Assembly: GCA_021733925.1 (NCBI GenBank)
Contig: JAIPJY010000008.1
Location: forward strand, 1-64,000
DNA from: Prosthecobacter sp.
GTDB lineage: Bacteria; Verrucomicrobiota; Verrucomicrobiia; Verrucomicrobiales; Verrucomicrobiaceae
Length of the DNA: 64,000 nt
Direction of reading: 5' to 3'
Numbering within the stretch: the stretch's first letter is position 1; each line of letters starts with the position of its first letter. This document shows, in pieces, positions 57,034 through 60,181 of this stretch. The notes below the pieces were generated by a model. That model was not told the DNA's origin. It did not search any database and worked only from the letters and a program-made list of their open reading frames with translations. Both the position numbers and the translations under genes were made by a program.

Positions 57034-58479
57034 ATGACCTTCACCCTCGAGTCCTTCCACTTCCACGTGCTGCCCATGCACACGCGCTTTCCGTTCAAGT
57101 ACGGCATCGCCAGCATGAATGCGCTGCCGCACCTCTTCGTCACGGTGAATCTGGTCGTGGATGGCAAGGCCGTGAGCGGACTCGCCAGCGAAGGCCTGCC
57201 GCCCAAGTGGTTCACGAAGAATCCGGACACGCCCTTTGAGCTCGATCTCGCGGAGATGATCGCCGTGATTCAAAACGCCTCGCGCATCGCCCGACTCGCC
57301 GCAGAAAAGCCCACCGGCTTCTTCGCCTGGTGGCAGAACCTCTACGCCGAACAAAGCAACTGGGCGAAGGTCAAAGAGGTCCCCTCCCTCCTCGCCAATC
57401 TGGGCGTGAGCCTGATCGAGCGCTCCGTGCTCGCCGGCCTGTGCAAAGCACTGGGCCAGCCCCTGCACGCCGTGCTGCGCTCCGACGTGCTCGGCATTGA
57501 CCTCGGTGCTGTGCGCGAAGAACTGCGCGGCATGCGCGTGGCCGATGTCATCGCACCCACCCCCTTGTCACACGTCCATGCACGCCACACCATCGGACTT
57601 GGCGATCCGCTCAGCGCCGCCGATGGCACGCTGGACGACGGCCTGCCATACACGCTGGAAGAAAACATCCGCGCCTACGGCCTGCGCTATTTCAAAATCA
57701 AAGTCTGCGGCAAATCGGAAACCGACCTGCCACGCCTGCGCGAAATCACCCGCATCATCACTGCCAACTGCCCCTCCGGCTTCCACGCCACGCTCGATGG
57801 CAACGAGCAGTTCTACGACCTCGCCTCCTTCCGCGAATTCTACGCCACGCTCAGCGCCGATGCCGCGCTGGCACCGCTCTTCCAAAACCTGCTCCTGATC
57901 GAGCAGCCCCTGCACCGCTCTCAGGCTCTCAACGACGACGTCGCTGCCACGCTCAGCGCATGGACCGAAGGCCCCGGCATGATCATTGATGAAAGCGACG
58001 GCTCACTTGCCGATCTCCCGCGTGCCCTCGACCTCGGTTATCGCGGCACCAGTCACAAGAACTGCAAAGGCATCGTCAAAGGCCTCGCCAACTCTGCCCT
58101 GCTCAAGAAGCGCAGCCCGGTCATTCGCGGCGGCCCCATCCTCAGCGGCGAAGACCTCGCCAACGTCGGCCCAGTGTCCCTGCTCCAAGACCTCAGCGTC
58201 ATGGCCCTGCTCGGCGTCACCCACGTCGAGCGCAACGGCCACCACTACTTCCGCGGCCTCAGCGTGCACTCACAGTCCACACAAGACGCCATGCTCACCA
58301 CGCACGCCGGATTGTACCACCGCCACCCCCAAGGCTTCGCGACTCTGCACATCGAAAACGGCTCACTCAATCTTGAAACTGTGAATGCCGCCCCCTTCGG
58401 CTGCGGCATCACTCTGGACGTTTCGCAGTTTGAGCCTCTGAATGCATGGATCAAACGAGGTGGGATGGGGGAACTGTAA
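57034..58479 (+). CDS. Enolase-superfamily (MR/MLE-type) enzyme
   Basis: The 481-residue protein has an enolase-superfamily barrel. The likely catalytic Lys pair is in FKIKVCG, and metal ligands lie in LDGNEQF (Asp), LLIEQPL (Glu) and IIDESDG (Asp/Glu), with a further SHKNCKG motif as the opposite base. The N-terminal capping domain begins LESFHFHVLPMHTRFPFKYGIA. Members abstract an alpha-proton from carboxylates (racemases, epimerases, dehydratases, cycloisomerases); the substrate is not evident. It is longer than typical MR/MLE proteins (about 370). The 3' end exists in a second copy after the AbrB/VapC cassette. Confidence 0.85.
   Translation: MTFTLESFHFHVLPMHTRFPFKYGIASMNALPHLFVTVNLVVDGKAVSGLASEGLPPKWFTKNPDTPFELDLAEMIAVIQNASRIARLAAEKPTGFFAWWQNLYAEQSNWAKVKEVPSLLANLGVSLIERSVLAGLCKALGQPLHAVLRSDVLGIDLGAVREELRGMRVADVIAPTPLSHVHARHTIGLGDPLSAADGTLDDGLPYTLEENIRAYGLRYFKIKVCGKSETDLPRLREITRIITANCPSGFHATLDGNEQFYDLASFREFYATLSADAALAPLFQNLLLIEQPLHRSQALNDDVAATLSAWTEGPGMIIDESDGSLADLPRALDLGYRGTSHKNCKGIVKGLANSALLKKRSPVIRGGPILSGEDLANVGPVSLLQDLSVMALLGVTHVERNGHHYFRGLSVHSQSTQDAMLTTHAGLYHRHPQGFATLHIENGSLNLETVNAAPFGCGITLDVSQFEPLNAWIKRGGMGEL
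58426..58471 (+). repeat. Direct repeat, left copy (3' end of enolase-superfamily gene)
   Basis: This segment encodes the enolase-superfamily C-terminus FEPLNAWIKRGGMG. It recurs, diverged, at 59193-59237. The core TGGATCAAACGAGGTG (G or A) GATGGGGG (58447-58471 versus 59213-59237) matches at 24 of 25 positions. Confidence 0.7.
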
Positions 58480-58500
58480 ATGAATGGGAATTGACGAAAT

Positions 58501-58524
58501 CAAGGAATTCAGCAAGATTCCTTG
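58501..58524 (+). promoter_or_regulatory. Palindrome upstream of the AbrB gene, candidate operator
   Basis: CAAGGAAT-TCAGCAAG-ATTCCTTG is a perfect 8-bp inverted repeat ending 1 bp before the ATG at 58526. Its position fits an autoregulatory site of an AbrB-type antitoxin. Confidence 0.5.
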
Positions 58525-58525
58525 C

Positions 58526-58792
58526 ATGACTTATTCTTCTACTCTGACCTCCAAAAACCAAACGACCCTGCCCAAGCCCATCGCCGCGCTCCTGGGCGCC
58601 AAGCCCTCCTCGATCCTTGCTTACGAAGTGCTTGAAGACGGAAAGGTTCTGCTAACTGCCAAATCAGCAACCTTCCAGGATATTGCCGATACATTTCCAA
58701 AGAAAAAGCCGATCAAGCCGGTCAGTATCGAGGACATGAAAAAAGCTGTGCTTCAAGGTGCCGTCCAACGTTTCAAGAAGGCGGTGAAATGA
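58526..58792 (+). CDS. AbrB/SpoVT-type antitoxin
   Basis: This 88-residue protein begins MTYSSTLTSKNQTTLPKPIA, an AbrB/SpoVT swapped-hairpin DNA-binding domain (LTSKNQTTLPKPI-LGAKPSS-ILAYEVLEDGKVLL), with a C-terminal tail that should bind the toxin (KPVSIEDMKKAVLQGAVQRF). The start at 58526 is chosen because the domain begins there; 14 extra upstream codons overlap the palindrome. It overlaps the PIN toxin by 4 bp (ATGA), the classical arrangement. Confidence 0.9.
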   Translation: MTYSSTLTSKNQTTLPKPIAALLGAKPSSILAYEVLEDGKVLLTAKSATFQDIADTFPKKKPIKPVSIEDMKKAVLQGAVQRFKKAVK

Positions 58793-59181
58793 CAGGCATC
58801 GACACCAACGTGCTCGTGCGCTATCTCGCGCAGGATGACGAGGCCCAACTTCGGGCCGTACGAACCCTGCTGCTGAAGAAGGGGGCGACGTTCATTGTTC
58901 CTGATCTCGTGCTCGTTGAAGCTGACTGGGTGCTTAGCACACTCTATCAATGGACGGCAGAAGAAATCGCCGAGGCATTTGGCCGGCTCCTGAACGTTCA
59001 CAATCTGGTCTTCGAGGATGAGGGCAGAATTCGTGGGGCCTTGCGTGCACTACGCCAAGGCGCAGATTTGTCCGACGAACTGATCGTTGATCGTTGTCGC
59101 CAGATGGGATGCAAAACGGTGGCGACCTTTGACAAGGGCATCACGAAGCATCATCCAGGATTTGCCGTGATTCCCAAATAA
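58789..59181 (+). CDS. PIN-domain ribonuclease toxin (VapC-like)
   Basis: This 130-residue PIN-domain protein has the acidic active-site residues Asp5 (MTGIDTNVLVRYL), Glu44 (LVEADWVL), Asp96 (LSDELI) and Asp115 (VATFDKG). It should be an RNA endonuclease held by the AbrB-type antitoxin encoded upstream. It starts inside the antitoxin's stop (ATGA) and ends at TAA 59179-59181, immediately before the second copy of the enolase-superfamily 3' end. Host RNA targets are unknown. Confidence 0.9.
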   Translation: MTGIDTNVLVRYLAQDDEAQLRAVRTLLLKKGATFIVPDLVLVEADWVLSTLYQWTAEEIAEAFGRLLNVHNLVFEDEGRIRGALRALRQGADLSDELIVDRCRQMGCKTVATFDKGITKHHPGFAVIPK

Positions 59182-59237
59182 CTCTGAAGTCCCAGTTCGA
59201 CCCGCTGAAGCCTGGATCAAACGAGGTGAGATGGGGG
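59182..59237 (+). repeat. Second, diverged copy of the enolase-superfamily 3' end
   Basis: Read from 59181, ACT CTG AAG TCC CAG TTC GAC CCG CTG AAG codes TLKSQFDPLK, homologous to TLDVSQFEPLN of the upstream gene. A frameshift then follows in CCTGGATCAAACGAGG. Synonymous and conservative differences indicate a related but not identical parental gene end. Confidence 0.6.
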
Positions 59238-59238
59238 G

Positions 59239-60105
59239 CTATAGATCGGTATCAGGAGCCACTGGCTCCTTGGTGGGAGCATTCGCAAAGACAAACCGGT
59301 GAATCCCCGCCAGATCAGGCGCGGTGCTCGAATTCAAATAACCCAGCTCCGTACAACGCTCAGCCACAGGCACACCTTGGTCGTGGCCGACCTCAAGAGC
59401 AATGAGCGCCCCTGAGTTGAGATGCGGCAGCGCATCAGTCAAAAACCGCTCCACGATGCGAAGTCCATCAGGCCCACCATCCAGAGCAAGGATGGGATCG
59501 CGTTTCACTTCAGCGCTAAGGGTCGGGATCTCGGCGCTGGGGATGTAGGGAAGGTTGGCGACGATGACGTCGAAGCTGCCGGTGATCTTTTCGAAGAGGT
59601 CGCTGCGCAGAAGTTTGACGTTGGCGCTGAGGCGCGAGGCATTGAGACGGGCGAGGTCGAGAGCGTCTTCGCTGATGTCGGCGAGGATGACTTCGCTAAG
59701 CGGCCAGGCTTTCGCGAGGCTGAGGCCGATGCAGCCGGAACCGGTGGCCATGTCGAGCACGCGTGCAGGTGCGGTGGCGCATTTTTTGAGCACGAGTTCC
59801 ACGAGCGTTTCCGTTTCCGGCCGCGGGATGAGGGCGCGGTGGTCACTCACAAATTCGTGGCCGCAGAATTCGACGGTGCCGAGCAGATGCTGCAGCGGCT
59901 CCCCTTCCCCGCGACGTTTAAGCAGCTCGCGCAGGTTCACAAGATCCTCCTCAGGCACGGTCTCATTGAAGCGCAGGTAGAGATCAAGCCGACGACACCC
60001 CAGGACGTGCGCAAGAAGATGCTCCATGTTCAGCCGGGCTTCGTCGATCTTGCGTTTCTCCAGATAGGCGGTGCCAGAGCTGACGATTTCGAGGATGAGC
60101 TTCAT
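59239..60105 (-). CDS. prmC: Peptide chain release factor glutamine methyltransferase PrmC
   Basis: This 288-residue SAM-dependent enzyme methylates the Gln of GGQ in RF1 and RF2. The N-terminal domain begins MKLILEIVSSGTAYLEKRKID. The catalytic domain has RVLDMATGSGCIGLSLAKAWP and the glutamine-binding motif NLPYIP (NPPY in many homologues). Ile/Val-rich strands follow (LIALEVGHDQG). The start 60105 is chosen by homology; the frame extends into a repeat. It sits 76 bp after a cyclo-ligase gene, with an AATGACGAATG repeat between. Confidence 0.93.
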   Translation of the reverse strand: MKLILEIVSSGTAYLEKRKIDEARLNMEHLLAHVLGCRRLDLYLRFNETVPEEDLVNLRELLKRRGEGEPLQHLLGTVEFCGHEFVSDHRALIPRPETETLVELVLKKCATAPARVLDMATGSGCIGLSLAKAWPLSEVILADISEDALDLARLNASRLSANVKLLRSDLFEKITGSFDVIVANLPYIPSAEIPTLSAEVKRDPILALDGGPDGLRIVERFLTDALPHLNSGALIALEVGHDQGVPVAERCTELGYLNSSTAPDLAGIHRFVFANAPTKEPVAPDTDL

Positions 60106-60109
60106 GAGG

Positions 60110-60151
60110 GAGAAATGACGAATGCCGAATGTGGAATGACGAATGGCGGAA
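60110..60151. repeat. AATGACG-type motif cluster
   Basis: AAATGACGAATGCCGAATGT, GGAATGACGAATGGCGGA is a short member of the repeat family also seen at 16498-16629 and 17112-17280. It lies between the prmC start and the cyclo-ligase stop. Confidence 0.5.
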
Positions 60152-60181
60152 ACCAGCGTCACTCAACTGATCATCACTCAT

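Follow-up and report, generated by a model that had tools for sequence, protein, structure and literature searches.

Nobusato et al. in 2000 (Gene 259:99) reportedly described the insertion of restriction-modification genes with long target duplication. Long and variable target duplications accompany the insertion of such genes according to the relevant passages of PMC3874152, PMC3031569 and PMC1643837 and as cited in PMC2654758. The locus analysed here lies in a stretch of 64,000 nt of Prosthecobacter sp. DNA (the window) and resembles these insertions as those passages present them, with an addictive unit, variable direct repeats of the order of 100 bp and no known mobile element. It differs from what the passages describe in that the unit is a toxin-antitoxin (TA) pair, in that the repeat is the 3' end of a gene and spans or nearly reaches its stop codon, and in that the copies, judging from pooled differences, seem to have diverged as functional genes prior to insertion.

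The minimal mobile element concept, developed in Neisseria, is said to go back to Saunders and Snyder in 2002. Term and citation are both found in an excerpt of PMC1538595. As in that concept, differing inserts occur between the same conserved genes, here an enolase-superfamily-like gene (ENOL) and prmC in 12 genomes, but exchange through both flanking genes would leave no copy of a gene end on the far side, where one is present here. Integrative elements at gene 3' ends rebuild the gene end after insertion. A rebuilt gene end is common to these elements and the present locus, whereas the insert has the size of a TA operon and the repeats are variable, with no common core recognizable by eye. 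In E. coli, chromosomal TA insertion loci such as relA-mazG and folA-apaH have been listed, in which the TA pair sits between conserved genes, and these are undisturbed where a strain lacks the pair, as is also seen here; gene-end copies are unmentioned for these two loci in the sections concerned, which also state that the mechanisms of TA integration had not been elucidated by 2020 (PMC7167474 (review)). Literature on TA target duplications, gene-end copies and insertion loci yielded no report of such a layout, which does not prove its absence in print.

A TA pair between two copies of a gene end

Below, G000 denotes the window genome, other G numbers relatives in the genus and L numbers loci (L047 is the window locus). 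The genus sample consists of Prosthecobacter-like Verrucomicrobiaceae, mostly draft metagenome assemblies. The features of the window locus are as follows.

57034..58479, + strand: ENOL, enolase-superfamily-like (label unconfirmed by any profile), intact ORF of 481 aa
58411..58471, + strand: near copy, the repeated 3' part of ENOL (gapped alignment; ungapped core 58444-58471)
58480..58525, + strand: short stretch from the ENOL stop to the probable antitoxin start (sequence reading)
58526..58792, + strand: AbrB/MazE/PrlF-type antitoxin gene, 88 aa counted from the probable start
58789..59181, + strand: PIN-domain toxin gene (VapC-like), 130 aa, Pfam PF01850
59181..59245, + strand: frameshifted far copy of the ENOL 3' end (59181-59237 by alignment, remainder by eye against G060)
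59239..60162, - strand: prmC, convergent with ENOL, Pfam PrmC_N PF17827

The two genes of the insert are predicted to form a type II TA pair with a PIN toxin (VapBC-like). A first-pass annotation had named them an AbrB/VapC cassette. The toxin half of that name is borne out by Pfam PF01850 (43.9 bits, cut-off 23.6), while the antitoxin scores best as a PrlF/MazE-type protein (PF15937, 30.6 bits, cut-off 32) and second with PF04014 (23.5 bits, cut-off 24.7), slightly under the cut-off in both cases. The antitoxin gene lies directly upstream of the toxin gene, with an overlap of 4 nt between the ORFs (58484/58526-58792 and 58789-59181). Its start, placed at 58484 in the first reading, is corrected to the probable ATG at 58526, because a stop directly follows the upstream ATG in G022. 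A TTGAC motif within the preceding short stretch is kept, by eye, at other sites of the window's TA family. According to ORFs and Pfam, the two TA genes are the sole content of the insert and no recombinase gene is present in it. A tRNA as target was rejected, the two tRNAs of the window being located at 39.7 and 41.2 kb. The label 'enolase superfamily' could not be confirmed, as the 481-aa protein had zero matches in Pfam, NCBIfam and a PDB sequence search. At E<=0.001, 46 of 48 genus genomes have an ENOL orthologue, although some of these matches are weak or partial. The protein has at least 80 relatives across Verrucomicrobia, Latescibacterota, Planctomycetes and others.

The recurrence of the ENOL 3' end after the VapC stop, noticed in the first-pass annotation, is real. 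The top-ranked direct repeat of the window in a repeat search is a 28-nt match of 93 % (58444-58471 / 59210-59237), which gapped alignment extends to 58411-58471 / 59181-59237, about 60 bp. The score of this alignment is 73 and the best of 2,000 dinucleotide shuffles reaches 38; a chance resemblance of short extent, the doubt raised at the outset, is not what is seen. The far copy begins with the final base of the VapC stop codon, which nearly agrees with the original claim that it starts at that stop. The region 58426-58471/59182-59237 is indeed repeated, but its end had been set too early. By eye, the continuation of the far copy ..GGGGGGCTATAG resembles the ENOL end of G060 ..GGGGGAACTATAG, and the copy therefore seems to reach the ENOL stop at about 59245. 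Comparison with G060 also places the prmC stop within the far copy's final bases.

The insertion sites in relatives

ENOL and its downstream DNA were taken from 19 genomes. The first-pass annotation had called for comparison with relatives lacking the TA genes, which might already carry the downstream segment. G060 is such a relative; it has no insert, ENOL and prmC are convergent with an overlap of 29 nt, and there is no second ENOL end beside ENOL. In G008, DUF433 and DUF5615 genes separate ENOL from a second ENOL end (alignment of 115 bp, 87 %), whose overlap with prmC is 29 nt. The far copy marks the original junction, because the far copy of G008 and the single ENOL of G060 overlap prmC by the same 29 nt. 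In the window, the gene end is present twice, the gene is intact, and the far copy lies where the ENOL end lies in the pair-less relative.

The same TA pair occupies the same place in G022, G046 and G051, and a C-terminal remnant of the antitoxin alone is found at the site in G001, G002, G012, G020 and G039 (L075-L079). These remnants lack a toxin; they are open as short ORFs of 52 and 57 aa in G002 and G012 and carry an in-frame stop in G001, and they could either reflect decay or have been kept as toxin-binding tails. At the corresponding position, G022 has a decayed far copy (p=0.001, shuffles); in G046 and G051 none was detected behind the PIN stop (p=0.70 and 0.64, shuffles). In an ENOL tree, G000 and G042 form one clade with these eight genomes, and TA genes or an antitoxin remnant are present at the site in 9 of its 10 members, with no TA found at the ENOL site of G042. 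Within this clade, TA identities (0.77-0.86) are below those of ENOL (0.83-0.89) and roughly track them, so that the window pair is read as one old insertion that would have been inherited mostly vertically. As the insertion is old, only its architecture, not import, is readable there. The codon CGA in the repeat occurs in both copies of G000 and in the ENOL end of none of the nine other clade members (by eye), which hints at a later exchange between the repeats.

Across 12 genomes the ENOL-prmC interval ranges from -29 to 1915 nt, with differing contents. In G046 (L080), the tail of a second antitoxin can be seen by eye at about 2730-2780, between the intact TA pair and prmC. In G057 (L084), two other ORFs, one of 139 aa and one of 211 aa that looks PIN-like by eye, follow ENOL at 1945-2999.

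Relatives also have empty sites at a second locus, a cytochrome gene of G000 (L059), for which 12 loci, that of G000 included, were read from 22 genomes with a match. Its far copy abuts a TPR gene, like the single gene end in G002, G014 and G016, and is clearly the resident junction. A homologous PIN gene lies beside the cytochrome gene in G000 and G010 only; the toxin has 28 matches in 17 genomes, with the cytochrome gene beside two only (flanks of about 1.5 kb). A single copy at an empty site is thus seen in relatives for two loci, ENOL and the cytochrome gene.

Gene-end copies at other PIN-toxin loci

The search for other pairs between a gene end and its copy, also proposed in the first-pass annotation, covered 127 PIN loci, namely all 19 of G000 and 108 of 131 listed for 15 other genomes; the 23 left out were 6 long-frame PIN proteins, 4 partial ones, 2 already in hand (G022 ENOL and G010 cytochrome) and 11 lower-scoring loci. 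Ten loci were flagged by a gene-end criterion that had been defined with the first cases already known. On manual review L051 was dropped (an AT-rich, tandem-like repeat without a convincing gene) and L215 was added (the stop of the gene lies 4 bp outside the copy). A gene 3' end and its second copy then flank the pair at 10 of the 127 loci, in seven genomes: L047 (window), L048, L059, L156, L157, L167, L200, L207, L215 and L243. The remaining 117 have no clear gene-end copy, including L166 and L185, where repeats are not tied to a gene end and were not counted. Shared flanks of homologous PIN loci were likewise left uncounted, because one-sided matches of 200-250 bp were taken as antitoxin genes.

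The copies measure 43-388 bp, with 680-924 bp between them, and the genes concerned include pabB (trpE-like), dnaA, purL, hrpA and a heme-binding protein (NCBIfam; some partial or under cut-offs). In L048 and L059 the TA genes have the opposite orientation to the gene. In L207, L156, L167, L059, L157, L215 and C14:77153 (see below), similarity between near and far copy stops no more than 4 bp from the stop codon; it continues 15 bp beyond this codon in L048 and ends 10-13 bp short of it in L243 and L200. No sequence or motif shared among the repeats of different loci was apparent by eye. Homologous PIN genes (88 %) lie behind dnaA in G022 (L167) and G039 (L191), with a far dnaA copy in G022 only. 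At G000:C14:77153-78302 (L128), the 3' end of a biotin-carboxylase-like gene is present in two 124-bp copies (92 %) that enclose a GNAT-like ORF of 222 aa and a basic ORF of 60 aa (by-eye labels); this may be a further such unit that lacks PIN.

In a cross-locus control, the maximum score in 506 pairs was 47, versus 63, 139 and 101 for three clean cases of G000. The gene-end criterion yielded seven pairs in 781,839 bp of G000, on contigs that were picked after the first cases and include the three holding known cases. By eye, three of the pairs surround PIN pairs and a fourth encloses a GNAT-like gene plus a small ORF; the others are one between paralogous genes, one terminator pair and one gene fragment. 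The resulting '3 of 6 PIN loci' in the scanned contigs is biased, since the contigs were chosen afterwards with known cases included. A fairer count sets 3 of 19 whole-genome PIN loci against 4 of 500-700 other genes, an assumed number for the scanned part of G000 (p=0.0013 to 0.0005). Raw repeats of at least 50 bits occur at 12 of 127 PIN loci and at 46 of 1083 control positions, which include the three TA loci and within-gene repeats; such raw counts are weak evidence.

Origin of the two copies and proposed route of entry

A third-position test was performed with ten pairs of at least 85 % identity, comprising eight PIN loci, G008 ENOL and C14:77153. Pooled, third codon positions hold 81 of 106 coding differences (p=2e-8 versus one half, a rough expectation if one copy is under selection and the other is free), and 48 of 70 when L207 is omitted (p=0.0013). 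Singly, only L207 (33/36) and L215 exceed one half at 0.05; L048 (0/1) and L059 (1/3) show no excess, with too few differences, and two older pairs have 45 % at third positions. Given the pooled excess, near and far copies probably diverged while both were functional. In a pabB tree of 19 orthologous loci, near and far copy are sisters with weak support (72/67), and those of dnaA are 94 % identical to each other and at most 86 % to any other species. Both patterns would also be expected from plain duplication. As the copies are nearest each other, either any donor was closely related or the pairs arose in place. Orthologue identities were not decisive for a foreign copy in G008 ENOL, dnaA or pabB, and neither was the pabB tree; the pabB identity comparison covered 12 of 18 orthologues and used the gene-end values, since indels distort those for the remainder of the gene.

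A common block of 2.2 kb (86-90 %), holding a DUF1501-like gene (by eye) and TA genes, is present in G006, G058 and G059 (L347, L348 and L349). Its TA genes are close relatives of the window pair (toxin 81 %) and unrelated sequence follows directly after the toxin gene. G006 and G059 have no other common stretch of at least 60 bp in the 10-14 kb compared; the other two comparisons share further stretches. This block lends support to joint travel of a gene and TA genes.

The reading favoured here, with a probability of roughly 0.55, is that the window pair is a laterally acquired TA unit that inserted at the ENOL/prmC junction and arrived joined to the gene end of a relative. The TA unit would come from a close relative, bringing along the 3' end of that relative's gene, and would enter by homologous recombination in the shared gene end, either by a single crossover of a circle or by one-sided homologous joining combined with illegitimate joining on the other side. 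Recombination would rebuild the gene end and the resident end would be left behind as the far copy. Later, the pair could be lost by deletion between the flanking direct repeats; toxin addiction would disfavour such a loss and help repeats survive around pairs. Natural DNA uptake is a possible form of entry, with one ComEC-family match in G000, a family that also occurs in genomes such as E. coli. The initial suggestion of an insertion at a gene end regenerated with a related sequence thus gains from the empty site of G060, the second locus, the recurrence and the codon-position test, all but its attachment-site mode.

The main rival is a plain long target duplication, in which a staggered break led to copying of 43-388 resident bp, the copies were identical at birth, and the survivors are those that span the stop codon. 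It may hold for short, nearly identical pairs, and L157 (1 difference), L059 and L048 (3 each) have the appearance of recent duplications. The resident junction found in the far copy at the cytochrome gene counts in its favour, as does the precedent of restriction-modification genes, as far as the passages cited above describe it. The third-position excess, above all in L207, does not fit copies identical at birth, and the abrupt loss of similarity near the stop in seven pairs is expected for two homologous genes, not for a random segment. Taken together, strict duplication is considered rather unlikely.

Tandem duplication of a gene end with its TA genes, or recombination between paralogues, followed by loss of the second unit, was raised by the second antitoxin tail before prmC in G046. 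It is disfavoured by the inverted pairs of L048 and L059 and by the sites without insert. The paralogue version, offered in the first-pass annotation, is unlikely at the window because a second full ENOL gene was sought in G000 and only one full match was found, which leaves this account improbable.

That a recombinase supplied in trans integrated the pair site-specifically, with the gene end as attachment site, would be in line with gene 3' ends being classic integration targets and with one gene end holding different pairs (ENOL in G000 and G008). The repeats of very variable length at unrelated genes, without a shared core by eye, argue against it, and the inserts hold little besides the pair, being too short for an integrase gene beside it; integration as at attachment sites, the mode first proposed, is therefore very improbable. 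Chance similarity or assembly error, which the draft state of most genomes might suggest, is scarcely credible given that 0 of 2,000 shuffles reach the window score, that the cross-locus maximum stays at 47, and that the layout recurs in seven genomes, one of which, G015, is assembled into 6 contigs.

To return to the reading of a laterally acquired unit, a TA pair with an imported gene end looks like a variant of long target duplication that is apparently new. Long, variable direct repeats around the inserts are common to both; as to identity of the copies at birth, the pooled excess speaks against it, the short pairs are compatible with it and the pabB tree support is weak. As a tentative extension, stand-alone TA pairs of the genus may spread as gene-end-addressed cassettes, in which the 3' end of a neighbouring gene serves as homology arm, host recombination inserts the pair downstream of the corresponding gene in related species and rebuilds that gene, and addiction retains the pair despite the repeats left on either side. 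The layout suggests how TA pairs may enter chromosomes without breaking genes, and would explain their landing behind tightly packed convergent genes, or behind dnaA and purL, without breakage. The insertion scars, consisting of near and far ends and, for two loci, empty sites, make TA entry testable by comparative genomics and by excision and transformation assays.
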